IMG/VR virus record: IMGVR_UViG_3300021368_002450 | Span: 1-40,510 of that record | DNA length: 40,510 nt | DNA from: a virus | Direction: 5' to 3' (one strand) | In this document: in pieces, positions 1-33,801 of the stretch | How the letters are laid out: every line of letters begins with the position of its first letter | Numbering within the stretch: position 1 is the first letter of the stretch | The notes under the pieces: generated by a model | Database searches by the model: none | Told to the model about the DNA's origin: nothing | The model's input: the letters and a program-made list of their open reading frames with translations, nothing else | Position numbers and translations under genes: made by a program

Positions 1-807
1 TATACAGTCGATTTCACTGGTATTGCCGCAACACCTTATGTAGGCAACTATACTGGTATAACGACTAACCCATACACCGGTAATTATACTGGCGTAACGA
101 CTAATCCATACACTGGGACTTATACGGGCGTCACTACTAATCCCTATACTGGAAACTATACCGGCGTTACAACTAATCCATATGTTGGAAACTTCACTGG
201 TATTTCCACCACAACATATGCTGGAGATTATACCGGCGTTACGACTAATCCATATACGGGTGATTTCACTGGTATTAGTGCGACACCTTATACGGGTGAT
301 TTCACCGGTATTAATGCAATACCTTATACCGGAAACTTCACTGGAATTAGTACCACACCTTATACCGGTGATTTTACTGGCATTCAGTCTATACCATACA
401 TCGGAACTTATACTGGTATTACAACCAATCCCTATACTGGAAACTATACCGGTATCACTACCAACCCGTATGTAGGTAACTACACCGGCGTAACAACTAA
501 TCCATATACCGGTCAATACACTGGTATCACCACTAATCCATATGTAGGTAATTATACTGGCGTAACGACTCAACCATATACTGGCAATTTCACTGGTATT
601 AGTGGGTTTGATTATACCGGTAATTATACTGGTGTAACAACTAACCCATACACCGGTAACTTCACCGGCATTAGTACGGCACCATATACAGGCAACTATA
701 CTGGTATAACGACTAACCCATACACCGGTAACTTCACCGGCATTAGTACGGCACCATATACCGGAAACTTTACCGGCATTGACGCAACACCTTATACTGG
801 TTCATTT
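1..807 (+). repeat. 36-bp coding repeat array A
   Basis: About 22 in-frame 36-bp units encode 12-residue repeats. Units of the YTGNYTGVTTNP class and the YTGNFTGISTAP class are interleaved. Position 4 is mostly Asn, with some Asp, Gln and Thr. The array is cut by the window edge, so its true length is unknown. Confidence 0.95.
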
Positions 808-3800
808 GAAAGGTTAGACACGGTTGAGTATACTGGAGATTATGCAACTTCTCGTGATAATTTGTACGCTGCAACTTTTGAGGGTAAGAATACAGTAACC
901 TTTACTCCATTAGGTGAAGCGTCTGTGTATCGTCAACACGGTCTTTCTAGTTGGATTGCAATGACTGGTGATAGCCCAATTCAATATTCTGCACCTTATC
1001 AGAGCACCAACATTTTTAAGGTCGATGCAACTACGAAAAATGTGAGTACTCAACTCACAACATCGGCTACTGATCCAGAACGCGGCACTTTCACAACGGG
1101 TGGTGCAGGAACAGAATATTATGCAGACAAACCGATTCACCTTCATGTGAATGCGGGTGATATGACTTTGGTTCCTTGGTCAATGCGTGGCCAACTCTTT
1201 GCACATTATATCACTCGAAATGCTCCATCGGTTATTCGATTCTATGCTCGTGAATCAGGTACCGTAACTGTTTATCGAGGTGGTGCAGGTATTGGTGGAA
1301 CACCTCTCACAACCGTATCATTGACCGCTGGTCAAATCGCTACTTATTCACATGGGACTTTGTCAACATGGTACTGGTATGAATCCGATGTTGATATGGT
1401 TGCGACAGCAGAAGGTGCTAATGGTTCTGACGCGGTTAAGATGGCGCCGATGGAAGATCGAATGTATCGCCATCGTGTTGGTAATAATATTAATGAAGAT
1501 GGTAATACGACCAATGTGGTGTCTACTGCATCTACTCTTCGTTCGACCGATGGTAAACGAGTCATGTCGGTTGCTATTGGTGATGGTGCGGGTGGTGACA
1601 GTGAAGTGCCTCTAGGTAATAGTCGATTATCAAACACATATTCGTGGGGTAACACTCTTAGTGACTTCACTCTTGTTGCGCCTAATGGGCCAACAAATGT
1701 GACCTTATGGAGTTGGAACGGAACTGCATGGAAAGAACGCGCGATCTACAGAATGAATGGAACACAAAACTCTCCTGCTACTGTTTTCCGTTCGGGTAAT
1801 GTTGGATTCTTTACTGAAGCACCGATTGCAGATGATTCGGGTTCATCCGCAAACTTCAATACTAATACCCATTGGAAGTGGGAAGGTGATGTACCATTCT
1901 ATCTAAGAATTAATGACACCGGCGATGATGAAGAAAGTATGCTGGGTTGGATGAACAACACTTATGGAAGTGAACAAACCCAATACTTTTCTGGTGTTTC
2001 GACCTATACTGGCAACTTTACTGGCATTAGTACCACACCATACACAGGTGACTTCACTGGTATAACGACTAACCCATACACTGGTAATTTCACCGGCATT
2101 AGTACGGCACCATACACCGGTAATTTCACCGGCATTAGTACGGCACCATATACCGGAAACTTCACTGGCATTAGTACGGCACCTTATACCGGAAACTTCA
2201 CTGGCATTAGTACCACACCTTATACTAGATCGTTTTTGACGAATACATACATAGGCGACCCAGCATTTAATCAAAACTATTCTGAAACCTTTGTAGGTGG
2301 TGGCGGCGTTTCTTCTTTCGCCGGAAATTACAATGTTTCAGGAACATTCCCTGGCCCTGAACCGATTACATTCTTCTTTGATTATACTGGAGATTATACG
2401 GGCCCAGCTGCGTCACCTTACGATGGCACATTCTTCATAAAAGAATATATCGGTTCTGCTGATTTTATAGGCAACTTTGATTCAGGGTCGACAGCTGTTT
2501 ACACCGGCCCTACAGTCACTTCAAGTTTTCAATACCAAGCAGCCGTTACTTACTGGCAGGAAATTCAAATGGACGCTGCTCTATGGCAAATTACTGTTCA
2601 ATGGCAAGGCGTGCAGGTTTACAGTAACGAGGTCTCTGGGACATTTCCGCCCAATACGGTCGTTGGTTCTGACGGCAATACTTATCGTCAAGGTACGAAT
2701 GTTATTGGTGGTAATTATTTTGTTCGACAGGAAGCAGTAAACTTTGTTGGTGGCGGTTCTGGCCCAGTCTATGATGGTAACTACGATAACACTCCATCGT
2801 TCACTGGTTCTCAATTAACTAATTATGACAACGGGGTCTATACCGGAAACTACACTGGCGTCACTACCAATCCATATACGGGCAATTACACTGGTGTAAC
2901 AACCAATCCATATGTAGGTAACTACACTGGCGTCACTACCAATCCATATACGGGCAATTACACTGGTGTAACAACCAACCCATATACAGGAGATTTTACA
3001 GGTATTTCCACCAATCCATATGTAGGAGATTTTACTGGGGTCACAAGTAGTAACTTTGTTGACGGCCCTTTTGTAGGAACACAATTAGAAAACTTTGTGA
3101 AAACATATACCGGTGTTATAACTGAACCCTACACTGGTAATTATACGGGTGTCACTACCAACCCGTATGTAGGTAACTACACCGGTATAACAACTAATCC
3201 GTACACCGGAAACTTCACTGGTATCTCAACTAATCCTTATACTGGCAACTACACTGGTGTGACAACCAATCCATACACCGGAAACTTTACAGGTGTTAGT
3301 GCAAGTACTTACGGCGGCGAATATACCGGAGTAACAACTCAACCGTACACTGGTGACTTCACTGGCATTAGTGCCACACCATACACTGGTGACTTCACTG
3401 GCATTAGTGCCACACCATACACTGGTGACTTCACTGGTATTAGTACGGCACCATATACGGGTAACTTTACTGGGATCAGTACAACACCTTATACCGGTGA
3501 TTTTACTGGATTGAGTGGTGTTCCATATACCGGTCAATACACTGGTATCACCACTAATCCATATACGGGCAATTACACTGGTGTAACAACCAACCCATAT
3601 GTAGGTAACTACACCGGTGTAACAACTAATCCATATACCGGTAACTATACTGGTATTACAACTAATCCATATGTTGGAAACTTTACAGGGATTAACAATA
3701 TTGACTACACTGGTAACTATACTGGTGTTACAACTCAACCATATACTGGCAACTTCACTGGGATTAGTGCCACACCTTATACCGGTGATTTTACTGGATT

Positions 3801-6800
3801 GAGTGGTCTCCCTTACACCGGTGATTTTACTGGCATTAGTACGGCACCATATACGGGTAACTTCACTGGTATTAGTGCGGCACCATATACCGGAAACTAC
3901 ACTGGTGTGACAACCAATCCGTACACCGGTAACTATACCGGCATCACCACTAATCCGTATGCGGGCAATTACACTGGTGTAACAACCAATCCATATGTAG
4001 GTGATTATACTGGAGTCACGACAGACCCATATACCGGAAATTATACTGGCGTAACGACCCAACCATACACAGGCAACTTCACCGGTATCAGCACCAATCC
4101 GTATACCGGTGATTTTACGGGTATACGACCAGTTGATTACACCGGAAACTTCACCGGCATTAATACAATACCGTACACCGGTAACTTCACTGGAATTAGT
4201 ACGGCACCGTACACTGGCAACTTCACTGGTATTAGTGCCACACCATACACTGGTGACTTCACTGGCATTAGTGCGACATCTTATGAAGGTGATTATGCCG
4301 CAGTTGATTTAGAAGAGTTTTCGGTCGCTTATACTCGAAACGAAGGTGGTGACCAATTCATTGTTGCAGGTGACAGTTATCTTGTCCCATCTGCTGATGC
4401 TATACCAGAAAGAAATCATGGTAGATCTTCATGGATAGTCATGGTGAGTGGCACTCAATTATATTCTGCCATCTATACCGGAACAGAGATTTTCCGTGAT
4501 CGAAATGGAACTGTAACAACCATTGTATCTGCAACTTCAGGGCCACAAAATGGTACTTTCGCTGTGACTCAAGGTGACATCATCTATTCGAATGGATTGC
4601 CGATCCATCTCATGGACGATGCGGTTCAACAAGCAATTGTACCCCTATCGTTAACGGGTCGAATATTCGGTACTGCGGTCAGTCGTGGTACCACAACTCT
4701 ATACTTTTGGTCACGAGATGCAGGTACAGTAACCTTCTATGAAGATGCAGGTACAAATGCTGGAGGCACTGGTATCAATGGAACACCTACAGACACTATC
4801 TCGCTTCCTGGCGGTTCGGTTGTTTCTTATGCTGTTGGCACACCAAACTATGTGGCGGGTGTGTCATATCACTTCTGGACATCGGATGTAGACATTGTTT
4901 CCACATCAACCAGTTCGAATGACCGTTTCATCGTACCACCCATGGCAGACGCAGGGGAGTCGCTCTACAAAAGAAGAAATGCATTCAGGCGAGCAGCGGA
5001 TGGTGGAGATGTAAGTAATACTGGCAACTATCGTCAAACAGATGTTAACGATCCTCACTTTGCAATTGAAATTGGAGATGGTGCGGGTGGTGATGCTACG
5101 CACGGTTTACCAGCTCGATATCTTTCGAATCATTACTCATGGGGTAGCACACTGAGTGACTTTGCACTTGTAATACCAAACTCTGGTTATGTGCGAATCG
5201 AAAGTTGGAATGGTTCTGCATGGGTAGAACATGAACAGTTCTTTGGTTCAGGTACCGATTCGAACCCAACTTATTTCTTCCGTGACGGTAATGCTGGATT
5301 TGGTGTTGCAGGAACAAATATCTCAGGTGGTTCAACTGTCGCAAACTTTAACGCCAACACTCTCTGGCGATGGAGAGGTTCTCAACCATTTTATCTCGTA
5401 ATCAATGACGCACCGGATGACGAAGAATCGTTGTTGGGTTGGATGGCCGATCTTGAAGATACAGTGTACATCGGCAATGAGTATGTCGGTGAATATACTC
5501 GTATTATTCAAACTCCATATACTGGTGATTTTACTGGAATTAGTGCGACACCTTACACCGGTAATTATACTGGTGTTACAACTCAACCATATACCGGAAA
5601 TTATACTGGTGTGACTGAGAACACATATGGTGGCGAATATACTGGTGTCACCCAAGTCCCTTATACCGGTCAATATACTGGTGTTACAACTCAACCATAT
5701 ACCGGAAACTTTACTGGTATTAATGCAATAACTTATGGCGGTGAATATACTGGAGTAACTTCAGATAACTATGAAGGACAATATACCGGTGTCACACAAC
5801 AAAACTATGAAGGACAATATACTGGTGTTACCACCAACCCATATGCAGGTCAATATACCGGTGTTACTCAGAACACATACGCAGGTCAATATACTGGAAT
5901 TACATCAGCACCTTACACCGGTGATTATACTCGTATCACTACAACTGTTTACGGTGGCGAATACACTGGCATCACTACCAATCCATATACCGGTAACTAC
6001 ACTGGTGTTACAGATGCACTTTATGTCGGTCAATACACCGGCGTAACGACTCAACCATATGCAGGTCAATATACTGGTGTTACACAACAAGATTACACCG
6101 GAGATTATACTGGAGTTACTGTAGCCCCTTATGCCGGTGATTATACTCGTATTACTACAACTGTTTACGGTGGTGAATACACTGGAGTCACGACAGACCC
6201 ATATACCGGAAATTATACCGGCATCACCACTAATCCATATACGGGCAATTACACTGGTGTAACAACTAACCCATATGCAGGTCAATATACTGGTGTTACA
6301 CAACAAGATTACACCGGAGATTATACCGGTGTTACTACTGATCCTTACACCGGTGATTATACTCGTATTACTACAACTGTTTACGGTGGCGAATACACTG
6401 GAGTCACAGAAACACCTTACACCGGTAACTACACTGGTGTTACAGATGAACTTTATGTCGGTCAATATACTGGTGTTACCACCAACCCATATGGTGGTGA
6501 TTACACTGGCATTACTCAACAGGATTACACCGGAGATTATACCGGTGTTACTACTGACCCATATACTGGTGATTATACTCGTATTACTACAACTGTTTAT
6601 GGTGGCGAATACACTGGCGTCACAGAAACACCTTACACCGGTAACTATACCGGCATCACCACTAATCCGTATGCGGGTCAATACACTGGAATCACAACTA
6701 ACCCTTACGGTGGTGATTATACTGGCATCACCCAGCAAGATTATACTGGACAATACACTGGCGTCACTCAAGACACGTATGCGGGTCAATACACTGGCGT

Positions 6801-8880
6801 CACAGAAACACCTTACACCGGAGACTATACTCGCATTGTTCAGGTTGATTACACCGGAGACTATACTCGCATTGTTCAGGTTGATTACACCGGAGACTAT
6901 ACTCGTGCACAAGAAGAAAACTATACAGGTGACTTCACAGGAATCAATCCAATTAATTACTCTGGTGGTTACACAGGTGTTGATGTAGAAACATATACCG
7001 GCGATTATACAGGTATCATTGAAGAATCATATACCGGTGACTATAGTCGTATCACTCAGTTCGATTATGCTGGACAATATACTGGTGTCACTCAGCAAGA
7101 TTATACCGGTCAATATACTGGCATCACCCAGCAAGATTATACTGGACAATATACCGGTGTGACAACGGATGGGTATGGAGGTAACTATACTGGTGTTACA
7201 CAACAAGATTACACCGGAGATTATACCGGTGTTACTACTGACCCATATACTGGTGATTATACAGGCATTACAACGGATGAGTATGTTGGTGAATATACGG
7301 TTGTTATTTCAGAAGATTACACAGGAAACTACGAACAAGATTATTCTGCTGACTATGTCGGACAGTATACTCGAATCGATCCCGAAAACTATGACGGGGA
7401 TTACACACGCATTATTCAAACACCATACACTGGTGACTTCACAGGTGTTCAAGAAATAACTTATTCTGGTGCTTATAGTGGTGATGACTTTGAACCTTAT
7501 ACCGGCCAGTACACGGGTGTTACACAACAAGATTACACCGGTGATTACACTCGTGCACAAGAAGAAAACTATACAGGTGATTATAGTCGTATAACCGAAT
7601 TTGATTATACAGGTGATTATACTTCCGTCGATATAGAATTATATGAAGGCGATTATACTCGTGTGACTTCAGATGGATATGAAGGTGATTATACGCGAGT
7701 TACTACTCAAGACTATACTGGCGAATATACTGGTGTCACTAGTCAGGATTATACAGGTGACTATACTCGAATCATTGATACAACATATGAGGGCGAATAC
7801 ACTCGCGTAACAGTCACGGATTATACTGGTGAATATACTGGTGTTATCGAAGAACCATATACGGGTGATTATACTGGTACGCCAGGCGAAGATTATACCG
7901 GTGAATATACTGGTATTATTCAAATAGATTACTCCGGTGATTATACGGGAGTTCTTGAAGAACCATATACGGGTGATTATACTCGAATTACGGAACTTGA
8001 TTACACCGGAGATTTCACAGGTGTTATCGAAGAACCATATACGGGCGATTATTCAGGTGCAGTTGTAGAACCTTACGCTGGCGACTATACTCGTGTTGAG
8101 AATTATTTGATTTTCACCGGCGATTATGGTAGAATAGATGAAGAACCATACACTGGAGATTACACTGGTATTATTGTCGAAACTTATTCAACTGAGTATT
8201 CGACAGCATTTACCAAGAATTATGAAGACATATATACCGGCGATTATGAAGGTGAATATTCAGCTGACTTCACTTCTGTATATGGTGAATCATATACTGG
8301 TGATTATACAAGATTATTTACTAAGAATTATGAAGGTGATTTCGAAGCAACCTATACCGGCGATTATAGTGGCGAATACAGTGGCAATTATACCGGTGAA
8401 TATGTTTCTGACTATACTTCAAACTTTACCTTAGATTTCACTGGAAACTATGAGGGAAATTATTCACCAGATTTCACTATAAACTATGATGGTCAGTATG
8501 TCCCAACATTTACCGGTGACGATTTCATTCGGAGTTTTGAGTCCAACTATATTCCGGCCGGATATACCGGTGAATTCACCGGAACCTTTATTCCATACTC
8601 CGGTCAATTTGAAGCGATTGATGAAGAGATATATACAGGGGAAGGTTTTGGTTCTACATATGAAGGTAACTATACGGGTCTTTCTTTCGAACGAACTTTA
8701 GAGATTGCATATATCGAAGAAGTTTATTCAAACAGTTTTGTAAGAAACTATGACGCAACTGGGGTTGAAGAAGTCTATACTGGAACTTTCGAAGGTTTAC
8801 AAATTTATGGTGCGGGGACAACACTCCTTGATCAACCAGCAGTAATTGAAACATACACATTATACTTGAGGGTGGCATAA
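1..8880 (+). CDS. Giant 12-residue-repeat virion protein (5' end outside window)
   Basis: The frame is open from base 1, so the gene starts left of the window; at least 2,959 residues are present, ending in TAA at 8878-8880. Most of it is a 12-residue repeat of type YTGNYTGVTTNP or YTGNFTGISTAP, roughly 140 units by spacing. It is interrupted by two related ~370-residue globular domains (853-1953 and 4321-5445) and a unique Gly/aromatic-rich stretch (about 2242-2835). The last ~230 residues degenerate into 4-residue repeats and a non-repetitive end. Repeat units almost lack Cys, Met, Lys, His and Trp. I see no catalytic motif. The position next to late structural genes and the extended repeat design suggest a very long tail fibre or surface filament; that is inference. 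A TTG at 862 could be mistaken for the start, but upstream codons continue the same repeat. I know no named family for the repeat. Confidence 0.9.
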   Translation, partial: YTVDFTGIAATPYVGNYTGITTNPYTGNYTGVTTNPYTGTYTGVTTNPYTGNYTGVTTNPYVGNFTGISTTTYAGDYTGVTTNPYTGDFTGISATPYTGDFTGINAIPYTGNFTGISTTPYTGDFTGIQSIPYIGTYTGITTNPYTGNYTGITTNPYVGNYTGVTTNPYTGQYTGITTNPYVGNYTGVTTQPYTGNFTGISGFDYTGNYTGVTTNPYTGNFTGISTAPYTGNYTGITTNPYTGNFTGISTAPYTGNFTGIDATPYTGSFERLDTVEYTGDYATSRDNLYAATFEGKNTVTFTPLGEASVYRQHGLSSWIAMTGDSPIQYSAPYQSTNIFKVDATTKNVSTQLTTSATDPERGTFTTGGAGTEYYADKPIHLHVNAGDMTLVPWSMRGQLFAHYITRNAPSVIRFYARESGTVTVYRGGAGIGGTPLTTVSLTAGQIATYSHGTLSTWYWYESDVDMVATAEGANGSDAVKMAPMEDRMYRHRVGNNINEDGNTTNVVSTASTLRSTDGKRVMSVAIGDGAGGDSEVPLGNSRLSNTYSWGNTLSDFTLVAPNGPTNVTLWSWNGTAWKERAIYRMNGTQNSPATVFRSGNVGFFTEAPIADDSGSSANFNTNTHWKWEGDVPFYLRINDTGDDEESMLGWMNNTYGSEQTQYFSGVSTYTGNFTGISTTPYTGDFTGITTNPYTGNFTGISTAPYTGNFTGISTAPYTGNFTGISTAPYTGNFTGISTTPYTRSFLTNTYIGDPAFNQNYSETFVGGGGVSSFAGNYNVSGTFPGPEPITFFFDYTGDYTGPAASPYDGTFFIKEYIGSADFIGNFDSGSTAVYTGPTVTSSFQYQAAVTYWQEIQMDAALWQITVQWQGVQVYSNEVSGTFPPNTVVGSDGNTYRQGTNVIGGNYFVRQEAVNFVGGGSGPVYDGNYDNTPSFTGSQLTNYDNGVYTGNYTGVTTNPYTGNYTGVTTNPYVGNYTGVTTNPYTGNYTGVTTNPYTGDFTGISTNPYVGDFTGVTSSNFVDGPFVGTQLENFVKTYTGVITEPYTGNYTGVTTNPYVGNYTGITTNPYTGNFTGISTNPYTGNYTGVTTNPYTGNFTGVSASTYGGEYTGVTTQPYTGDFTGISATPYTGDFTGISATPYTGDFTGISTAPYTGNFTGISTTPYTGDFTGLSGVPYTGQYTGITTNPYTGNYTGVTTNPYVGNYTGVTTNPYTGNYTGITTNPYVGNFTGINNIDYTGNYTGVTTQPYTGNFTGISATPYTGDFTGLSGLPYTGDFTGISTAPYTGNFTGISAAPYTGNYTGVTTNPYTGNYTGITTNPYAGNYTGVTTNPYVGDYTGVTTDPYTGNYTGVTTQPYTGNFTGISTNPYTGDFTGIRPVDYTGNFTGINTIPYTGNFTGISTAPYTGNFTGISATPYTGDFTGISATSYEGDYAAVDLEEFSVAYTRNEGGDQFIVAGDSYLVPSADAIPERNHGRSSWIVMVSGTQLYSAIYTGTEIFRDRNGTVTTIVSATSGPQNGTFAVTQGDIIYSNGLPIHLMDDAVQQAIVPLSLTGRIFGTAVSRGTTTLYFWSRDAGTVTFYEDAGTNAGGTGINGTPTDTISLPGGSVVSYAVGTPNYVAGVSYHFWTSDVDIVSTSTSSNDRFIVPPMADAGESLYKRRNAFRRAADGGDVSNTGNYRQTDVNDPHFAIEIGDGAGGDATHGLPARYLSNHYSWGSTLSDFALVIPNSGYVRIESWNGSAWVEHEQFFGSGTDSNPTYFFRDGNAGFGVAGTNISGGSTVANFNANTLWRWRGSQPFYLVINDAPDDEESLLGWMADLEDTVYIGNEYVGEYTRIIQTPYTGDFTGISATPYTGNYTGVTTQPYTGNYTGVTENTYGGEYTGVTQVPYTGQYTGVTTQPYTGNFTGINAITYGGEYTGVTSDNYEGQYTGVTQQNYEGQYTGVTTNPYAGQYTGVTQNTYAGQYTGITSAPYTGDYTRITTTVYGGEYTGITTNPYTGNYTGVTDALYVGQYTGVTTQPYAGQYTGVTQQDYTGDYTGVTVAPYAGDYTRITTTVYGGEYTGVTTDPYTGNYTGITTNPYTGNYTGVTTNPYAGQYTGVTQQDYTGDYTGVTTDPYTGDYTRITTTVYGGEYTGVTETPYTGNYTGVTDELYVGQYTGVTTNPYGGDYTGITQQDYTGDYTGVTTDPYTGDYTRITTTVYGGEYTGVTETPYTGNYTGITTNPYAGQYTGITTNPYGGDYTGITQQDYTGQYTGVTQDTYAGQYTGVTETPYTGDYTRIVQVDYTGDYTRIVQVDYTGDYTRAQEENYTGDFTGINPINYSGGYTGVDVETYTGDYTGIIEESYTGDYSRITQFDYAGQYTGVTQQDYTGQYTGITQQDYTGQYTGVTTDGYGGNYTGVTQQDYTGDYTGVTTDPYTGDYTGITTDEYVGEYTVVISEDYTGNYEQDYSADYVGQYTRIDPENYDGDYTRIIQTPYTGDFTGVQEITYSGAYSGDDFEPYTGQYTGVTQQDYTGDYTRAQEENYTGDYSRITEFDYTGDYTSVDIELYEGDYTRVTSDGYEGDYTRVTTQDYTGEYTGVTSQDYTGDYTRIIDTTYEGEYTRVTVTDYTGEYTGVIEEPYTGDYTGTPGEDYTGEYTGIIQIDYSGDYTGVLEEPYTGDYTRITELDYTGDFTGVIEEPYTGDYSGAVVEPYAGDYTRVENYLIFTGDYGRIDEEPYTGDYTGIIVETYSTEYSTAFTKNYEDIYTGDYEGEYSADFTSVYGESYTGDYTRLFTKNYEGDFEATYTGDYSGEYSGNYTGEYVSDYTSNFTLDFTGNYEGNYSPDFTINYDGQYVPTFTGDDFIRSFESNYIPAGYTGEFTGTFIPYSGQFEAIDEEIYTGEGFGSTYEGNYTGLSFERTLEIAYIEEVYSNSFVRNYDATGVEEVYTGTFEGLQIYGAGTTLLDQPAVIETYTLYLRVA
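853..1953 (+). other. Globular domain copy 1 in the giant protein
   Basis: A non-repetitive domain of about 367 residues. It shares a series of landmarks in the same order with the domain at 4321-5445: HGLSSWI / HGRSSWI near the start, KPIHL / LPIHL, SDVDMV / SDVDIV, IGDGAGGD in both, LSNTYSWGNTLSDF / LSNHYSWGSTLSDF, SWNGTAW / SWNGSAW, and DDEESMLGWM / DDEESLLGWM at the end. It looks beta-rich, with many aromatic and Gly residues. I do not recognise a named fold. Repeat units flank it directly. Confidence 0.85.
1999..2226 (+). repeat. 36-bp coding repeat array B
   Basis: About six units, nearly all of the FTGIST class. Neighbouring units around 2090-2160 are almost identical at DNA level, which suggests recent duplication. 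The array follows globular domain copy 1 and ends where the unique region at about 2242 begins. Confidence 0.9.
2839..3030 (+). repeat. 36-bp coding repeat array C
   Basis: About five units, mainly YTGNYTGVTTNP with alternating YTG and YVG starts. A 72-bp pattern of two units (YTG then YVG) recurs almost exactly. It is bounded by the unique region on the left and by a short spacer (about 3031-3105) on the right. Confidence 0.9.
3109..4281 (+). repeat. 36-bp coding repeat array D
   Basis: About 32 units mixing the VTTNP and ISTAP/ISATP classes. It includes an exact tandem 36-bp duplication at 3346-3381 and 3382-3417. It runs directly into globular domain copy 2. Confidence 0.95.
4321..5445 (+). 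other. Globular domain copy 2 in the giant protein
   Basis: About 375 residues, paralogous to the domain at 853-1953 (shared landmarks are listed there). The two copies have clearly diverged in residues but keep domain order and length. They lie about 3.5 kb apart with repeat arrays between them, which points to an old internal duplication of a globular plus repeat segment. Confidence 0.85.
5869..6732 (+). repeat. 216-bp higher-order repeat (four copies)
   Basis: Six 12-residue units form a 72-residue super-unit repeated in register at 5869-6084, 6085-6300, 6301-6516 and 6517-6732. Each copy carries YTRITTTVYGGEYTG at the same internal position. The last two copies are the most alike. A further unit beginning with QQDYTG starts at 6733. 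Confidence 0.85.
6821..6892 (+). repeat. Exact 36-bp tandem duplication
   Basis: Two identical 36-bp units (6821-6856 and 6857-6892) encode YTGDYTRIVQVD-type repeats and are followed by the start of a third. Identity at DNA level, against a background of synonymous variation, indicates a recent slippage or unequal-recombination event. Confidence 0.9.
8353..8520 (+). repeat. 12-bp/4-residue repeat tract
   Basis: Fourteen uninterrupted tetrads of the form [Tyr/Phe]-x-x-[Asp/Glu/Asn/Gln/Thr], such as YTGD, YSGE, FTLD and YDGQ. The upstream 12-residue unit reads as three such tetrads (YTGN, YTGV, TTNP) in which the third has lost its aromatic residue. Confidence 0.9.
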
Positions 8881-9341
8881 TGCAATACGAAATTTTAGAT
8901 AATGCATATTGGGAAGATGGCATTGACGACAAATCTGTCGTTAAATGTATTCGAATGCATAATGAGGGAAATCAACGGAGAAAAGAGGTTTGCGTTTTCT
9001 CCAAATTTTTGCCAGACCGTTCACTCTGTCCCCGATACAAAGAAGTGGTAAGTGTTGTCGGAACTGAAAGGATTGACGCAAACACAGTTGAACGAAGACA
9101 AAGAAAATCTTCTGAGGCAAAACATAATGAGGTCAAACAACAACAACAGCAGAAGACTCAAGAGCTAGAACACCTATTTCATATGAAATTAAAGGCTTTT
9201 CAGATTCCAGAAATCCGTGATAGTGAACGCAAAACCTTACGCACAAAGTTAAGACGATCCGAAAGTGAGGTTGAGATGAATGCGTATGCAACTCTTATTA
9301 TTGGTCTTGAAACGGGTATTTTAAATGAGCGAACCGACTAA
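8880..9341 (+). CDS. Hypothetical basic protein, possible accessory or chaperone
   Basis: A 153-residue protein whose ATG overlaps the stop of the giant gene (TAATG), so the two are probably translationally coupled; GAGGGTGG just upstream can serve as ribosome binding site. Residues 70-100 are Lys/Gln/Glu-rich with a five-Gln run and probably helical. Residues 115-130 are strongly basic (Arg/Lys). A helical segment ending near residue 145 contains EVEMNAYATLI. There is no signal peptide or membrane segment. I do not recognise a characterised family. The position directly after a giant fibre gene would suit a fibre assembly factor or small structural partner, but nothing in the sequence proves that. 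Confidence 0.75.
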   Translation: MQYEILDNAYWEDGIDDKSVVKCIRMHNEGNQRRKEVCVFSKFLPDRSLCPRYKEVVSVVGTERIDANTVERRQRKSSEAKHNEVKQQQQQKTQELEHLFHMKLKAFQIPEIRDSERKTLRTKLRRSESEVEMNAYATLIIGLETGILNERTD

Positions 9342-10089
9342 GGGTTACTTGATTGTAGCCAGCAGGAAAAAGTTTTTTTATCTCTCTGCACTTAATCTTA
9401 TAGAATCAATTCTCGATTTTTACCCCGATGCGAAGTGTTGTTTAGTCACCGAAGAACACTTCATCGATGATCGGGGTAGAAAATTATGTGATCAGATCTT
9501 GCTCTGTGATGATCATAAACGCGCGAAAATTACTGGAATGGCAAAGTCCCCCTATGACTTGACCTTCTACATCGATGCAGACACAGAATGTGAACACGAA
9601 GACATTGAAAAAGTGTTTGACTTATTCAATGGGCATGATATACTGTTCACGGGTCTCCCCGTAGAAAGACATTATTGTTATGCAGAAGTTTACTTTGAGG
9701 GTGCAAGAAAACCAGACGGAGAACCTGCTGGTTTTGAACTATGTGGTGGTGTGTGTTTATATGATATGCGAGTTCCTCTGGTTCGAGAGTTTTTAGATGC
9801 ATGGTACGAACTGACCGTTGAACAATATGCAGGTCGATGGTGGCCGAAAGATGAGAATGGCAATGAAGACCTAAAGAACTATCCAGAATCATTCAAGCGT
9901 TGGGATCAGTTTTCTCTTTGGTGGTTGACGAAGAAAGATGAAAGGTTCAAGGATTTAAATGTAGGAATCATGGAAGATGACGCACGGTGGAATTTTTATT
10001 CCAAGTACAAAGAATATTTGAATCACAACAAAGAACCGATTGTGATACGACACTATTCTTCAGCTGATGCGAAGCACGGACAATACTGA
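9325..10089 (+). CDS. Glycosyltransferase, GT-A type
   Basis: A 254-residue protein overlapping the preceding gene by 17 bases. It starts with a beta strand and an SRKKFFYLSALNLIESI-like helix (residues 12-30), as in nucleotide-diphospho-sugar transferases. It has a DxD motif (Asp84-Ala85-Asp86) after a hydrophobic strand, the usual metal and sugar-nucleotide site of GT-A enzymes. A Cys-Gly-Gly-Val segment (residues 140-143) matches the acceptor-side strand of such enzymes, and a His-Tyr-Ser segment lies near the C-terminus. Donor and acceptor cannot be read from sequence. Lying between a giant Thr/Tyr/Asn-rich fibre gene and other fibre genes, it may glycosylate virion proteins; DNA or host-surface modification is an alternative. 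Confidence 0.8.
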   Translation: MSEPTKGYLIVASRKKFFYLSALNLIESILDFYPDAKCCLVTEEHFIDDRGRKLCDQILLCDDHKRAKITGMAKSPYDLTFYIDADTECEHEDIEKVFDLFNGHDILFTGLPVERHYCYAEVYFEGARKPDGEPAGFELCGGVCLYDMRVPLVREFLDAWYELTVEQYAGRWWPKDENGNEDLKNYPESFKRWDQFSLWWLTKKDERFKDLNVGIMEDDARWNFYSKYKEYLNHNKEPIVIRHYSSADAKHGQY

Positions 10090-14714: not shown

Positions 14715-17700
14715 ATGGCACAGAAACGACTGTCACAACTAAGTGGAAAGGTAAGGGTTCGAGCGTTTGGACGCTTGGACTCCGATCGTTATACTTTCCT
14801 AAACTTAGAACAGGCAGAACCCAATGCGGGTTTGCCTGAAAGTGATGGTGCCTTATTCACATCGTTGGTAGATGGTACTCGTAGTTTCACTACCACCCCA
14901 ACTCTCAGTGGACTAAGTTTCAACGCAAACTCCCTTGATTCTGTTATTGCGGACTCTAGATTCCTACTTGCGATTCGTGATCCGAAATCACTAGACAGTG
15001 TTGGTATTGTAAGTACTGCTGACTTTGCAGAAGCAATTTCTCAGGATACTCTTCAGACTGTCACTAATCGAGGTGATTCTACCAATCGTGATATCACTAT
15101 TGCGGGTCTGGTAATTACTGCAGCAGATAGTGACCCAACCACAACACTGATATTGGTCAAGAATTTACAGACTGATTCAGTAGGTATTCGATCATTTAAA
15201 TCACTCGCAGATGATCTTGGATTAATCTCTCAGGGTGATCAGTTGATCGCTAGTGGTCTGACTCTCACAGTTGACAGTGATCCATTTTCTACTACCGTTC
15301 TTGTTCAGGATCTACAAACTGATTCAGTTGGTATTCGATCGTTCAAATCTCTTGCGGATGATCTGGGACTGATATCACAGGGCGACCAGATCATTGCGAG
15401 TGGATTGACACTGCAAACCGATAGTGATCCTTTATCAACAACGGTATTGGTTCAGGATTTACAAACAGATTCAGTTGGCAAACGGTCATTTCAATCTCTT
15501 GCTGACGATGCGGGATTTGTACAACAAGGTGATGCAATTACTGCTGGTGGCCTTACTCTTACCGTTGCAGATAGTGATCCCGATTCTCTAACAGTTCTTG
15601 TTAAGGATTTACAGACAGATAGTGTAGGCATTCGATCCTTTGAGTCACTCGCAGATGATGTGGGTCTAATCAAACAAGGTGATCGTATCGATGCAAGTGG
15701 ATTGACACTGCAAACCGATAGCGACCCATTGTCAACAACCATACTGGTACAAGATCTGCAAACAGATTCGGTAGCGAAAAGATCGTTTGATGACCTCGCA
15801 GGCGATGCAGGACTTATCGCGCAGGGCGATGACATTGGTGCGGGCGGACTCACCATTGCTACGGTAGACAGTGATCCGAATACGAATCAAATTCTGGTAA
15901 TTAATCTTCAGACAGATAGTGTAGGCAAGCGGTCGTTTGGTGACCTTGCGGATGAAGCAGATCTTATTCGACAAGGAGATCGGATTGATGCAGGTGGTCT
16001 GACATTAGTCGCAGATAGTGATCCCAACTCACTCACCGTTCTGGTACAGGATCTACAAACAGATTCCGTGGGTAAACGGTCTTTCGAATCCCTCGCCGAT
16101 GATCTAGGATTAATTAAACAGGGTGATCGGATTGATGCCAGTGGACTCACCTTGCAGACCGATAGTGACCCCAATTCACTTACTGTTCTGGTACAAGATC
16201 TTGTCACTGATAGTGTTGGCAAACGGTCGTTTGAATCACTTGCTGATGATCTGGGATTAATCAGTCAAGGGGATCGTATTAATGCCAGTGGTTTAACACT
16301 ACAGACTGATAGCGATCCCAACTCACTCACGGTTCTGGTACAAGATCTTGTCACTGATAGCGTTGGCAAACGGTCGTTCGAATCTCTTGCTGATGACATT
16401 GGTTTAATCAGTCAAGGTGACCGCATCGATGCAAGTGGATTGACTCTTGCAACTGACAGTGATCCCAACTCACTCACTGTTCTGGTACAGGATCTACAAA
16501 CCGACTCAGTCGGTAAGCGGTCATTTGAATCATTAGCGGATGACCTTGGTCTTATCAAACAGGGCGATCGTATTGATGCCAGCGGACTTACCTTACAGAC
16601 GGATAGTGACCCAAATTCAATCACGGTACTCGTACAGGATCTCGCGACAGACTCCGTAGGAAAGAGATCATTTGAATCTCTTGCTGATGACCTTGGTCTA
16701 ATCAGTCAAGGTGATCGCATTAATGCCAGTGGACTTACCTTACAGACTGACAGTAATGCAGTTACCAATCAAATACTTGTTGTAGATCTTCAAACCGACA
16801 GTGTATTCAAGAGATCGTTTGGTGATCTTGCGGATGCCGCAGATCTCATTCGTCAGGGTGACCGAATCGATGCGGGTGGTCTGACACTAGTCGCAGATAG
16901 CTCGAATGATTTAACTGTTCTTACGATCGATCTTGTCAGTGACTCGGTTGGTAAACGATCCTTTGAATCGCTCGCTGATGATGTGGGTCTGATCAAACAA
17001 GGTGACCGCATCGATGCGAGTGGTCTAACATTACAGACCGATAGTGATCCAGATACAAACCAGATACTCGTTGTTGATCTGGTCACGGATAGTGTAGGTA
17101 AACGGTCATTCGGTGATCTTGCCGATGAAGCAGACTTGATTCGTCAGGGTGATCGAATTGATGCTGGAGGATTGACTCTTCTTGCGGACAGTGATCCTAA
17201 CTCAACCAATATTCTTGTTATCGACTTACAGACTGACAGTGTTGGTAAACGAAACTTTGCACAGTTAGCGGCCGAAGCAGATCTTGTACCCGACACTTTA
17301 CAGACGGTCACGGATCGAGGTGACTCTACCAATGTTGGTATTACTATCGGTGGTCTATCGATTACAGTCATTGACAGTAACCCCAGCACCAACCAGTTGT
17401 TGGTTGTCGATCTCACGACCGATAGTATCGGTATTCGAAACTTTGCGTCATTGACGGAAGAGGCAGGTCTTGGTCAGGACACATTACAAACTGTAACTGA
17501 TCGAGGCGACAGTACCGACAATGCAATAACCCTGAAACAAGGTTTGGTAGTAAACAATCTTCCCACCGATGGGACGACCACAGATGTTCTTGTCAAAACA
17601 AGTTCGGACAGTGTTGCGATTCGTACTTTTGCAAGTCTTGCTGCAACCGTCGAAGAGACATTACAGACAGTCACCGAACGAGGTGACAGTACCGATAGAG

Positions 17701-17825
17701 ATATTCTGATAAACGGTGCATCGTTGACCGCAGACTCAGTCAAGGCATCTGTAGGATTCTTTGATACCAATAATGTGCAATTAATCATTTACGATTCCGC
17801 AGGGTTAGTGCTCTGGGGAGCATAA
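14715..17825 (+). CDS. Repeat fibre protein with fourteen 49-residue repeats
   Basis: A 1,036-residue acidic, Asp/Ser-rich protein. Residues 151-837 are about fourteen repeats of 49 residues, each holding a TDSVGKRSFESLADD-type segment, QGDRIDASGLTLQTDSDP, and a hydrophobic TVLVQD strand. Before and after the array the related motif DTLQTVT-x-RGDST appears (about residues 112, 856, 924 and 985), typical of phage fibre stalks. The C-terminus ends in a short strand (VQLIIYDSAGLVLWGA). There are no catalytic motifs. It is probably a long trimeric fibre shaft. It is the last gene of the fibre block; its stop overlaps a late promoter (17821-17828). Confidence 0.75.
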   Translation: MAQKRLSQLSGKVRVRAFGRLDSDRYTFLNLEQAEPNAGLPESDGALFTSLVDGTRSFTTTPTLSGLSFNANSLDSVIADSRFLLAIRDPKSLDSVGIVSTADFAEAISQDTLQTVTNRGDSTNRDITIAGLVITAADSDPTTTLILVKNLQTDSVGIRSFKSLADDLGLISQGDQLIASGLTLTVDSDPFSTTVLVQDLQTDSVGIRSFKSLADDLGLISQGDQIIASGLTLQTDSDPLSTTVLVQDLQTDSVGKRSFQSLADDAGFVQQGDAITAGGLTLTVADSDPDSLTVLVKDLQTDSVGIRSFESLADDVGLIKQGDRIDASGLTLQTDSDPLSTTILVQDLQTDSVAKRSFDDLAGDAGLIAQGDDIGAGGLTIATVDSDPNTNQILVINLQTDSVGKRSFGDLADEADLIRQGDRIDAGGLTLVADSDPNSLTVLVQDLQTDSVGKRSFESLADDLGLIKQGDRIDASGLTLQTDSDPNSLTVLVQDLVTDSVGKRSFESLADDLGLISQGDRINASGLTLQTDSDPNSLTVLVQDLVTDSVGKRSFESLADDIGLISQGDRIDASGLTLATDSDPNSLTVLVQDLQTDSVGKRSFESLADDLGLIKQGDRIDASGLTLQTDSDPNSITVLVQDLATDSVGKRSFESLADDLGLISQGDRINASGLTLQTDSNAVTNQILVVDLQTDSVFKRSFGDLADAADLIRQGDRIDAGGLTLVADSSNDLTVLTIDLVSDSVGKRSFESLADDVGLIKQGDRIDASGLTLQTDSDPDTNQILVVDLVTDSVGKRSFGDLADEADLIRQGDRIDAGGLTLLADSDPNSTNILVIDLQTDSVGKRNFAQLAAEADLVPDTLQTVTDRGDSTNVGITIGGLSITVIDSNPSTNQLLVVDLTTDSIGIRNFASLTEEAGLGQDTLQTVTDRGDSTDNAITLKQGLVVNNLPTDGTTTDVLVKTSSDSVAIRTFASLAATVEETLQTVTERGDSTDRDILINGASLTADSVKASVGFFDTNNVQLIIYDSAGLVLWGA
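15165..17225 (+). repeat. 147-bp coding repeat array (14 units)
   Basis: Tandem in-frame units of 147 bp encode 49 residues, with one- or two-residue indels in a few units. The central units (about 16050-16740) are most alike; outer units diverge. Two subtypes alternate: SFESLADDLGLI and SFGDLADEADLI. Confidence 0.9.
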
Positions 17826-22844: not shown

Positions 22845-25800
22845 ATGCATAATAACTTTTTGGACAGAAGGCGCCGAAACCTACGATTGCAACCGGATCA
22901 GGTGGATCTTATTCTACCTGAACACTTTGCAGCGCAATATCCAAAATTTATTAGTCTACTCAAATTCTATTATGAGTTTCAGAACGAAGAAAAGGCAACA
23001 GAACTTCTTCGTCACCTTTTTGCTTCGAGAGACATTACTGAAACTGATATAGAACTTCTATCGTACATCGAAGATGAATTACTCTTGGGTGATTCATACT
23101 TCGAAAGTTTTGCGACCGGTGACGCACAGAAACGCGCTGCAGCAAACTTTTCAAACACATTGTTTCGAACAAAGGGGACTAAGTTTGCAATTCAGTGGTT
23201 CTTTCGATCTTTCTTTGGATTAGATGCAGAAGTTGTAGAAACAAAAGATAATATTTTTGAGATTGGTGACCCCAACTCTCAGATTGGCCCTAACTCATTA
23301 CATTATATCACAGACGATAAACTTTATCAAACCTTTGCGTATCTGATTCGTACAGAAATTCCAATCTCAAAGTGGCGTGAACTGTTTAAGTTATTTGTTC
23401 ACCCAGCAGGAATGTATCTTGGTGCAGAACTATTGATCAAAGATGAAACATTGGTATCTTTGTTATCAGAAGATTCCGATGGAATTATCACCACCTCTAC
23501 AAGTCCGGTTTATAATCTCACAGTAACACCGTCGACCGAAGAGAGTGAGGGCACCACATTCAATTTTGCATTGACTGGAACCAACGCATCAAACGGAACT
23601 TATCTTTATTACATCGATACAGAAAATTTCACTGCATCACAGAATGATTTCGTATTTGCGTCGGACAGTGTGTTCCCCGATTCAGCAAATAAAAGAACAC
23701 TCGATTTCACCGGAGGTTCGGCAAGTTTCGATTTACAAATTCGTACAGACTCAGATGAAAGTGAGGGTACGGAAACTTTTCGCGTATACTTCCAAGACCC
23801 TGAAGGTCGTTCCATTGCAACATCTGATTTAAACATCGTAGATGCAGAATCTAAATTTTCGATTGCTGCTTCTTCTACTTCAATAACGGAAGGCGACTCT
23901 GTCCAATTCACCGTGACCGGTATACGAGATGTGCCTAACGACGGGTCGACAAATCTGTATTACAGACTCAACCCAATCAGTGCAGACAGTGACGATTTCT
24001 TGTCAGGTTCTTTCCCTGCAACCGGTTCTAAACAATCGTTCGCTATGAGAAACAATACTGCTGAGTTTAGTGTCCAGACCACGATTGACGGTAACTGGGG
24101 TTCAGCGGAAGGTGATGAAACATTTAATGTCACAGTATTCACACAGAGCGACATACTCAAAGCAACTTCAGACACCATTACTGTTACGAACACTACACCA
24201 CAATTTGACTTTGTGGGTAGAGCGTTAACAGAAGGCGAAGACATTGTTGTTGGATTATCAGTTGATCCGGTAACAGTTGGTCAAACAGTTGAGTACAGTA
24301 TTGAGGTGGGTGATAACAGAATCGTGACAAACACCGGTTCATTTGAAATCACTTCACCTACCGCAGAATATGTTCTAAGTCAGACATCGATAAGTGATGC
24401 TTTTGACTCCGTTATTAGTTTGGTAACTCTCGAAACCTTAACTCAGGCTTCAGGTGGTTATTATAATCCGGTCTTATCAAATACCGCTAACTATGCCATT
24501 GGAAGTGTAGCACCATCGTTCACTTCAATAGTACCAGATTTAGTTGGTCAAACGAACGATGAGGATGTTACCTTCACTATTACCGGAACTAATATTCCAG
24601 ACGGTAACTCAGCGAAATACTATATCGATCTGATTTCTCCGACAGAAACCGCAGACTTTGATCTGGGTGGTTCATTGCCCGTTTCGGTTGGAACCGCCGT
24701 TGATGTTTCATTCACAAGTAACTCTGGTTCAGTAACTTTGGGATTTGCTGCTGGTAGTGAAACAACAAACGAAGAATTTGATATCGTAATAATTGACACA
24801 GACGATGTCGAGGTATTGCGTCTCCGATATGCAATTGCAGGAGAAGTTGTATATGGTCTAACAACTCCGGCCGGAGGAACAGCAAACGAAGGTGATACCT
24901 TGACTCTGACCTTTGACCATGATGGTGGTTCAAACGGAACATACTACTACTATGTTAGTCCGGTTACGGGTTCAATTGACGCAGACGATTTCACTTCGGG
25001 ACACGCAACATCGAGTAGTCGAGCAACCTTCGCTGTAAGTAGCACTGGAACCAATACTGGTGAGGGAGATATCCAACTTGTAATCAGTTCGGATAGGAAA
25101 AGAGAAGGTTCAGAAGTCTTCCGTGTGTTTGTTTCAGAAACAGCAACCGGAGCAGTCATAGCACAGTCTGGTAACATAACAATTAGTGATACTTCAACTC
25201 AAACCTACACCATGAGCATGGCCGACATCACCGAAGGTAGTCCCTTGAATGCCATTGTGTCTCCAGATGTTGGAAATGATCCTAGTGACGAAACAATATT
25301 TGTAAACTTTGATATCACTAGTGGCAATAATATTGTATTAGGAGACTCAACTACATTGGGTCAGGTCGTGAATATAACGACCGGAAACAAGTCATTTATC
25401 TCGACGACTGCATCGACTTCTACGGTCGATGGCGATCGAACAATCACGGCAACTGCACATGTTGGCAGTCCGACAGGGACTCAGGTTGCCACGACGACAT
25501 GCACGATATCCGATGCCGCTCCGTCATACACACTGACGACAAATAAAACAAACGACAGTGCCAACGAAGGTGACACTATACAGTTTTCTTTCGGTGGTAC
25601 CAATGTGCCTAGTGGTATATATTATTACATCCTCAGTGATATTAATTATAAAATTATCGGAACAAATCAAGCGACAAATATTATCGAGAATGACATCATC
25701 TATTTGGGTGCAAACAATGATTTATCAAATCTTCAGACTGGAATGGAGATAAGAGGTTTATTCCCAGAACAGTATTTTGATTCTGAGGCAACCATAACTT

Positions 25801-26654
25801 TAATTAGTGATATAGGTCAGGTACCACCATATTATGATTACATTCAAATGTCAGAGAATGCATCGTCTAATGTTGCTTATTCAGCACCTCAAGGCGCGTA
25901 TTTTGCATTACCCCAAGTGTGGGAAGACTTTGATGATGCCGGTGCAGGTAATGGTAGAGCACCGTATGGAAGTTTCACTCATACCACTGGTACAACATCA
26001 ACCTTCAGTGTTGATGTCTCAGATACCGGTGATGTTGCAGATCCCGCAACTACCACATACACAATGCAGGTAAAATCTTCTCACGGTTCAAGCGGTACAG
26101 TATATAAAACCAGATCTTTCACAATCTACGATGGTGATGAAAACCCTGCACCGAATGTTCAGAGAGGCGATTTGACTAATCCACAAAATTTGTATGGTAA
26201 CTTTATAGGCGTACTCGACGGTGGCTCTACAGGACAGGTCAAAATAATATTTAATTCTAGTGGTAGTATTACAGTTGAAAGGGTTGACACTGATGTGGAT
26301 GATACTGGCGCACTGATTACTGACTCATATGGAAATTGGGTTGATGATACTGATACAGGTTTCGATGCTAATGATTTTGAAATACGAGCAGTAGAAATTA
26401 GTGAAACAAATCCATTCTCTCAAGTAGACACTGGTGATGGTTATGGTTCAGACTTCTTCGATATTACAGGTGAAAATTCAAGAAATGAATTTGGAATTAG
26501 AACAGTTGTACCTAGTGAAGAAGATCAATTAGTTGGTGGTGATAAAACATTTGACATTACTATTAGGGAAAAAGATGACCCTACAAATAATGTTTTCACA
26601 ACCAGAATAACATTATTTGTATCTACCAGATATATTGACGGCGATCAACTCTAA
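22845..26654 (+). CDS. Structural protein with about seven Calx-beta-like domains
   Basis: A 1,269-residue protein. Residues 1 to about 205 form a mostly helical module (LPEHFAAQYPKFISLLKFYYEF, then RTKGTKFAIQWFFRSFFGLD), seen at the N-terminus of many large virion proteins of marine T4-like phages and likely a particle-anchoring domain. From about residue 220, roughly seven Ig-like domains of 100-120 residues follow, each with the Calx-beta pattern: EG near the start, YY in the middle, DF, then a closing strand. One domain near residues 925-1025 holds an extra nested beta element. The C-terminal ~170 residues are acidic and unique. Probably a long surface fibre or adhesin-like decoration. 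It sits between gp15 and gp16, where T4 has nothing. Confidence 0.75.
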   Translation: MHNNFLDRRRRNLRLQPDQVDLILPEHFAAQYPKFISLLKFYYEFQNEEKATELLRHLFASRDITETDIELLSYIEDELLLGDSYFESFATGDAQKRAAANFSNTLFRTKGTKFAIQWFFRSFFGLDAEVVETKDNIFEIGDPNSQIGPNSLHYITDDKLYQTFAYLIRTEIPISKWRELFKLFVHPAGMYLGAELLIKDETLVSLLSEDSDGIITTSTSPVYNLTVTPSTEESEGTTFNFALTGTNASNGTYLYYIDTENFTASQNDFVFASDSVFPDSANKRTLDFTGGSASFDLQIRTDSDESEGTETFRVYFQDPEGRSIATSDLNIVDAESKFSIAASSTSITEGDSVQFTVTGIRDVPNDGSTNLYYRLNPISADSDDFLSGSFPATGSKQSFAMRNNTAEFSVQTTIDGNWGSAEGDETFNVTVFTQSDILKATSDTITVTNTTPQFDFVGRALTEGEDIVVGLSVDPVTVGQTVEYSIEVGDNRIVTNTGSFEITSPTAEYVLSQTSISDAFDSVISLVTLETLTQASGGYYNPVLSNTANYAIGSVAPSFTSIVPDLVGQTNDEDVTFTITGTNIPDGNSAKYYIDLISPTETADFDLGGSLPVSVGTAVDVSFTSNSGSVTLGFAAGSETTNEEFDIVIIDTDDVEVLRLRYAIAGEVVYGLTTPAGGTANEGDTLTLTFDHDGGSNGTYYYYVSPVTGSIDADDFTSGHATSSSRATFAVSSTGTNTGEGDIQLVISSDRKREGSEVFRVFVSETATGAVIAQSGNITISDTSTQTYTMSMADITEGSPLNAIVSPDVGNDPSDETIFVNFDITSGNNIVLGDSTTLGQVVNITTGNKSFISTTASTSTVDGDRTITATAHVGSPTGTQVATTTCTISDAAPSYTLTTNKTNDSANEGDTIQFSFGGTNVPSGIYYYILSDINYKIIGTNQATNIIENDIIYLGANNDLSNLQTGMEIRGLFPEQYFDSEATITLISDIGQVPPYYDYIQMSENASSNVAYSAPQGAYFALPQVWEDFDDAGAGNGRAPYGSFTHTTGTTSTFSVDVSDTGDVADPATTTYTMQVKSSHGSSGTVYKTRSFTIYDGDENPAPNVQRGDLTNPQNLYGNFIGVLDGGSTGQVKIIFNSSGSITVERVDTDVDDTGALITDSYGNWVDDTDTGFDANDFEIRAVEISETNPFSQVDTGDGYGSDFFDITGENSRNEFGIRTVVPSEEDQLVGGDKTFDITIREKDDPTNNVFTTRITLFVSTRYIDGDQL

Positions 26655-32724: not shown

Positions 32725-32738
<14 letters not shown>
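31065..32738 (+). CDS. 20: Portal vertex protein gp20
   Basis: A 557-residue portal subunit (T4 gp20 has 524), the dodecameric DNA channel at the head vertex and docking site for gp17 and the neck. Conserved parts include HQLIMRYRGVSQHPEVDMAIEEIVNESI (about residues 67-94), the DARGRIxK-like core (IRLIDAARIRKVKEVK), RLARAPERRIFYIDVGNMPRGKADQYM (about 264-290), and LPGGDNLGQIDDIIYFQKRLYRSLNVP (about 338-364). The C-terminus has an acidic, Pro/Glu/Lys-rich linker (about 502-535) longer than I expect. AGGA seven bases upstream of the ATG supports the start. The end overlaps the collagen-like gene by 14 bases. Confidence 0.95.

Positions 32739-33801
<1,063 letters not shown>

Follow-up and report, generated by a model that had tools for sequence, protein, structure and literature searches.

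What kind of protein is encoded by the very long reading frame at the left end of this viral contig, and what might it do for its phage? The window, as we call the whole stretch of DNA analysed, is the full source record of 40,510 bases, and its left end lies inside the frame. On the + strand, frame 1 has no stop from base 1 until the stop codon at 8878-8880, as an earlier note on this DNA had claimed; the chance of such an open frame of 2,959 codons is about 10^-80 given the base composition, and the five other frames hold 55-258 stops each. That note had proposed retrieving the 5′ end from the full contig, but the record itself begins within the frame, and 2,959 residues is therefore a minimum for this ORF (1..8880), whose 5′ end falls past the contig edge. 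Searches of Pfam, PHROGs, PDB and BFVD gave no match for the giant protein, which agrees with its first description as a giant repetitive phage protein of no named family.

Tandem Repeats Finder reported 36-bp periods between 49 and 8059, plus the multiples 72, 108, 144, 216 and 432. Aromatic residues of the ORF are paired at lag 12 in 325 cases, against 68 ± 7 in 500 shuffles (maximum 89), and at lag 4 in 198 cases, against 68 ± 7 in shuffles (maximum 87). The 36-bp, 12-residue repeat described earlier is thus real, but the basic unit is four residues, [Y/F]-x-[G]-[N/D], and the 12-residue form is local. The 12-residue unit YTGNYTGVTTNP and its variants make up about 1,880 residues of the window frame. 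They fill four stretches (residues 1-293, 669-745, 947-1444 and 1828-2837) and dominate the frame only there, being interrupted by two homologous folded inserts, one irregular stretch and the C-terminus. In order on the + strand, repeat finding and residue pattern delimit array segment 1 (1..879), then come folded insert 1 (883..2001, aa ~295-667), array segment 2 (2005..2235), the irregular stretch, delimited by residue pattern, that separates array segments (2236..2838), array segment 3 (2839..4332), folded insert 2 (4363..5478, aa ~1455-1826), array segment 4 (5482..8511) and the C-terminal closing strand IETYTLYLRVA with the stop (8836..8880). The inserts are 40% identical to each other and have relatives in other loci (for insert 1, in L011/L091, L012 and L019). 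The Gly and Thr of the units are encoded by a mixture of synonymous codons, and the amino-acid pattern therefore seems to be maintained by selection, and not by recent DNA slippage alone.

When the first third of the frame was used as a tblastn query, the 50,697 GenBank phage genomes searched yielded one relative, Phage C48C1 (Kyanoviridae), so that a complete homologue of 3,347 residues, CDS0201 (WJE88074.1), is already on record, without a function and annotated only as 'hypothetical'. As in the window, CDS0201 has an aromatic array, along with a head and an ETYTLYVRVA end, and is followed by the same four genes in the same order (P0004, P0005, P0006 and P0007; 153, 254, 235 and 116 aa in the window; 32%, 53%, 36% and 57% identity between the two phages). 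Unlike that of the window, its array is Arg-rich.

An insert-domain query of IMG/VR gave no match, and the conserved neighbour genes were therefore used as queries. The second and third downstream genes gave 123 and 204 confirmed matches, and 80 of each were used, yielding 118 distinct loci, in 98 of which the contig extends 1.5 kb or more upstream of the module. Within these sets of 80 matches, an aromatic-array ORF with the tip motif lies upstream of the module in 93 of the 98 loci with room. The exceptions are one locus where the tip motif is internal and an extra domain follows (L021, same contig as L161), three whose array ORFs end in a different C-terminus (L098, L099 and L134), and one with a different tail protein at the position of the giant gene (L033). 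In a reverse search from the head, P0004-P0005-P0006 followed those copies with enough contig, and a second, upstream paralogue often stood in front of the module. The family is present in more than 100 IMG/VR contigs; it is common among these virus contigs yet matched only once among GenBank phage genomes, and has therefore escaped culture. Searches of open-access papers turned up nothing on the aromatic repeat or the gene module.

Complete members range from about 410 to 3,345 residues. An N-terminal head of ~270 residues is followed by ~130 to ~3,000 residues of array, and the protein ends in the motif ETYTLYVRxA; the head and the C-terminal motif are common to members. Among the smallest, members of about 440-450 aa (L129 7533-8849, L149 3142-4488) keep head, tip and module with a mini-array (NYAGPT, NYLGEASGAV), and lend themselves to expression and structure determination. 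Judging from these relatives, the head of the window's protein would lie beyond the left edge, and with it the remainder of the domain that its tip appears to complete.

The head is, by profile alignment and the predicted model, a triplication of three tandem related domains, D1-D3. In hhalign, D1 and D2 matched with an E-value of 3.6e-6, and D2 and D3 with probability 95 and an E-value of 2e-8, while column-shuffled controls reached at most probability 5. The AlphaFold model of a complete 764-residue member is confident in the head and again, after ~490 unconfident residues, in the final ten residues with the last strand (755-762); its last two blocks have pLDDT 76 and 92, while the array has 20-35 and no regular fold. 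The secondary elements run E-E-H-E-E / E-E-H-E-E-E / E-E-H-E-E [array] E, with D3 lacking its last strand. When the tip profile was scanned over 258 head windows, the top two scores fell on the last strands of D2 (11.7) and D1 (10.4), with the third best at 2.7; the closing strand of the window matches these same strands. An hhalign test in which the tip was shuffled gave no separation from chance (shuffles up to 49.3, real 45.4). Foldseek of the family model, with its unconfident array included, matched nothing in PDB or BFVD at E <= 0.001.

Since the strand that D3 misses is the one matched by the C-terminal motif, we take the array to be probably a loop within a domain, not a fibre with a free tip. 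Most simply, the tip would be D3's own last strand and the array would occupy the preceding loop. Model confidence and strand pattern are what suggest that tip and D3 touch in the 764-residue member, and the D3 that the tip joins may be its own or that of a neighbouring subunit. With head and C-terminal strand in one domain, the array seems to be anchored at both ends. The elongated beta-solenoid or ribbon filament inferred in the earlier note thus finds no support: the relative's array has pLDDT ~20-35 without regular fold, and the anchoring seems to leave no free distal end for a filament. An ordered array may still be compatible with this result, as the model is a monomer of a relative, built on a noisy repeat alignment.

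The tetrads common in the family carry Y/F at the first position, T/S/A/V/E at the second, mostly G at the third (R in some) and N/D/T/Q/E at the fourth. Among relatives, L097 and L112 for instance show almost 600 pairs of aromatics four residues apart. Across arrays, the distance from one aromatic to the next is a multiple of four in 73-89% of cases, one-residue register shifts are common (gaps of 5 and 9), and longer periods are local, such as 12 in the window and 30 in L011. So strict a four-residue period points to order in the array which the monomer model failed to capture. Tetrads are mostly Y/F, G, T/S/A/V and N/D, with almost no Lys, Cys, Trp, His, Met or Pro. A collagen-like array was rejected, there being no Gly-x-y pattern and almost no Pro. 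Arrays also change fast. As an example, the flanks of L108 and L109 share 98.7% identity across 11.9 kb, and yet their giants have 2,130 and 2,487 residues; among the examined sister pairs, head identity is 95-100%, almost always without gaps, while array indels reach 357 residues. Such rapid change between near-identical phages is a possible marker of host-phage arms races in uncultured populations.

The four downstream genes, all on the + strand, are conserved in order, with P0004 directly ahead of P0005 in 114 of 118 distinct loci and P0006 next after P0005 in 116 of 117. Genes overlap at 8880, 9325-9341 and 10067-10089, as in a translationally coupled operon, to judge by their arrangement. 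P0004 (8880..9341) had no convincing match in family searches, and our guess is a helper or chaperone. P0005 (9325..10089) has a DxD motif, D84-A85-D86, invariant in 47 sequences, from which we infer a GT-A glycosyltransferase; 26 of the 47 members match Glycos_transf_2 weakly, below the cut-off, and a profile search against PDB gave no match. P0006 (10067..10774) is predicted to fold as a double-stranded beta-helix (pLDDT 94.7) of the Fe(II)/2OG-oxygenase type. Its best Foldseek matches are prolyl hydroxylases, with a bacterial prolyl-4-hydroxylase at probability 1.00, and members of its family match 2OG-oxygenase PHROGs (five for PHROG 81 and two for PHROG 61). His137, His198 and Arg208 are invariant, and Asn139 takes the expected iron-binding Asp/Glu position, giving HxN for HxD. 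As the 2OG-oxygenase core is otherwise intact, this invariant HxN could reflect altered iron chemistry, or else a halogenase-like or an inactive site. P0007 (10814..11164) is a homologue of 'L-shaped tail fiber protein assembly' proteins (PHROG 3304).

P0006 shares its fold with the prolyl-4-hydroxylases (P. putida P4H 4j25, vCPH 5c5t), which are protein-modifying 2OG oxygenases, and differs from them in HxN. Prolyl or lysyl hydroxylation of the tetrads was rejected for their near lack of Pro and Lys. With almost no Pro, Lys or Cys in the tetrads, the plausible modification targets are therefore Thr/Ser, Asn/Asp or Tyr. C48C1 further encodes a nucleotide-sugar epimerase and a UDP-glucose dehydrogenase.

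The giant gene lies between baseplate genes and the head-tail adaptor gene (gp13), adjoining the fibre-assembly homologue; a tail-fibre-gene locus with an assembly helper is what a long tail fibre would have. In pelagimyophages the region ahead of the neck genes is a 'host recognition cluster' with tail fibres and glycosyltransferases, the latter read as LPS-modifying (PMC7029224). The present locus resembles that cluster in its pre-neck position and gene content; it differs in that the cultured pelagimyophage HTVC008M has no member of the giant family. The nearest terminase is that of C48C1 (74.5% identity), followed by those of cyanophages at about 48%. A cyanophage origin was rejected, as 12 long records had no psbA-family match. 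A search of genome collections for a host gave one good match, a 142-kb phage-like contig in a Sphingobacteriales MAG, which is too weak to name a host. This contig (L250, JAAXIF010000028.1) carries the whole module and two tandem giants.

From the gene order in the baseplate-gp13 region and the adjoining fibre-assembly homologue we propose that the giant is a tail-borne, modified, hypervariable adhesive loop of uncultured marine T4-like phages, an account that we consider moderately likely. The giant would be a surface protein, encoded in the tail-fibre region of a T4-like phage, whose head docks onto the tail or baseplate. The array would form a closed loop of ~130 to ~3,000 residues ([Y/F]-[T/S/A/V]-[G]-[N/D]) with both ends anchored in D3, bearing folded insert domains and reaching outward as a multivalent, low-affinity adhesive surface, its aromatics stacking on host or particle glycans. 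P0006 would hydroxylate and P0005 glycosylate the loop, P0004 and P0007 would aid folding or assembly, and gain or loss of units would allow quick change of reach and surface. The family with its order of genes, the triplication of the head, the homology of the tip strand, the variability of the arrays and the oxygenase fold come from computation, while virion location, adhesion and array modification are all inferred steps of this account.

In a linear and probably trimeric tail fibre, the earlier reading, the head would sit on the baseplate, the array would be an ordered beta shaft (solenoid or intertwined ribbon) and the C-terminus would bind the receptor distally. The strict four-residue period, the neighbourhood of tail-fibre genes and the four-residue VTGN repeats of other tail proteins speak for it. 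The long tail fibres of T4 and T5 (gp34/gp37, pb1) are indeed alike in their tail-region locus, nearby assembly helper and N-terminal head followed by a long repetitive part. The giant, however, is far longer, without profile or fold match to any fibre family, and its C-terminus appears to come back to the head and so to make no distal tip; in place of a receptor-binding end we found a strand with homologues in those that close D1 and D2. Together with the low array confidence and the common register shifts, this makes a linear fibre unlikely. The cyanophage S-RIM2 structural protein SWTG_00067 (YadA/VTGN-repeat) has an x-T-G-N four-residue repeat and the equivalent locus just before gp13, but its short repeat is aliphatic, its N-terminus is unrelated and it lacks the module. 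Array matches to S-RIM2 and other cyanophages were rejected as homologues, being only the short VTGN repeat in an unrelated tail protein. The low array confidence and the skewed tetrad composition would suit a disordered, sticky low-complexity loop, with aromatic stickers set between Gly/polar spacers in the manner of FG nucleoporins or FUS-like proteins; it would serve as an entropic brush or a condensate-like coat and bind no glycan specifically, but the spacing is far stricter than stickers require and folded inserts stand within the arrays, so we think this improbable.

The giant gene could also be a mere neighbour of a glycosyltransferase and an oxygenase whose substrates are host LPS or virion proteins other than the giant, as the reading of the pelagimyophage enzymes would suggest; the single fixed order with the array gene and the overlapping genes in over 100 divergent phages argue against this, and we rate it as somewhat unlikely. 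That the frame length is a product of assembly, with tandem units collapsed or expanded by short reads, is very improbable: the contig does end within the array, like many related contigs, but complete, independently assembled giants of 1,500-3,345 aa (C48C1 and many contigs) are in frame with head and tip.

Returning to the adhesive loop, we suggest only tentatively, and with somewhat less confidence than in the loop itself, that it represents a new architectural class of virus surface protein. A small domain would be present in three copies, the third of them interrupted by a hypervariable aromatic-repeat loop of up to ~3,000 residues that is modified by a dedicated glycosyltransferase and oxygenase; the product would be no fibre but a glycosylated loop tethered at its ends. 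Such a loop architecture, if true, would be a different solution to the phage appendage, tunable via unit number and probably bearing phage-added sugars, and some 3,000 residues at 0.34 nm each would give it a contour length of close to 1 micrometre. Of the many glycosyltransferases and 2OG oxygenases of these genomes, at least one would then gain a specific candidate target, for which the repeat offers a defined test peptide.

The window holds other unusual proteins. Just before gp13 (14715-17825) is a second repeat protein, of 1,036 aa with 49-residue (147-bp) units; its conserved part is present in up to 12 copies, about 60-75% identical, and the protein belongs to no convincing family. A 1,269-aa protein without known family (22845-26654) is inserted where the tail sheath stabiliser region borders on the terminase small subunit, and between the portal and the genes next to it (32725-33801) is a tail-fibre-like protein with collagen-like GERGEK and an 18-bp repeat at 32962-33020. 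In C48C1 (L168/L169), positions 1-100 kb carry seven tRNAs (Thr, Asn, Leu, Asp, Tyr, Ser, Ala), which mostly match the giant's most-used residues (T, S, Y, N, A, D), a match that may be chance.
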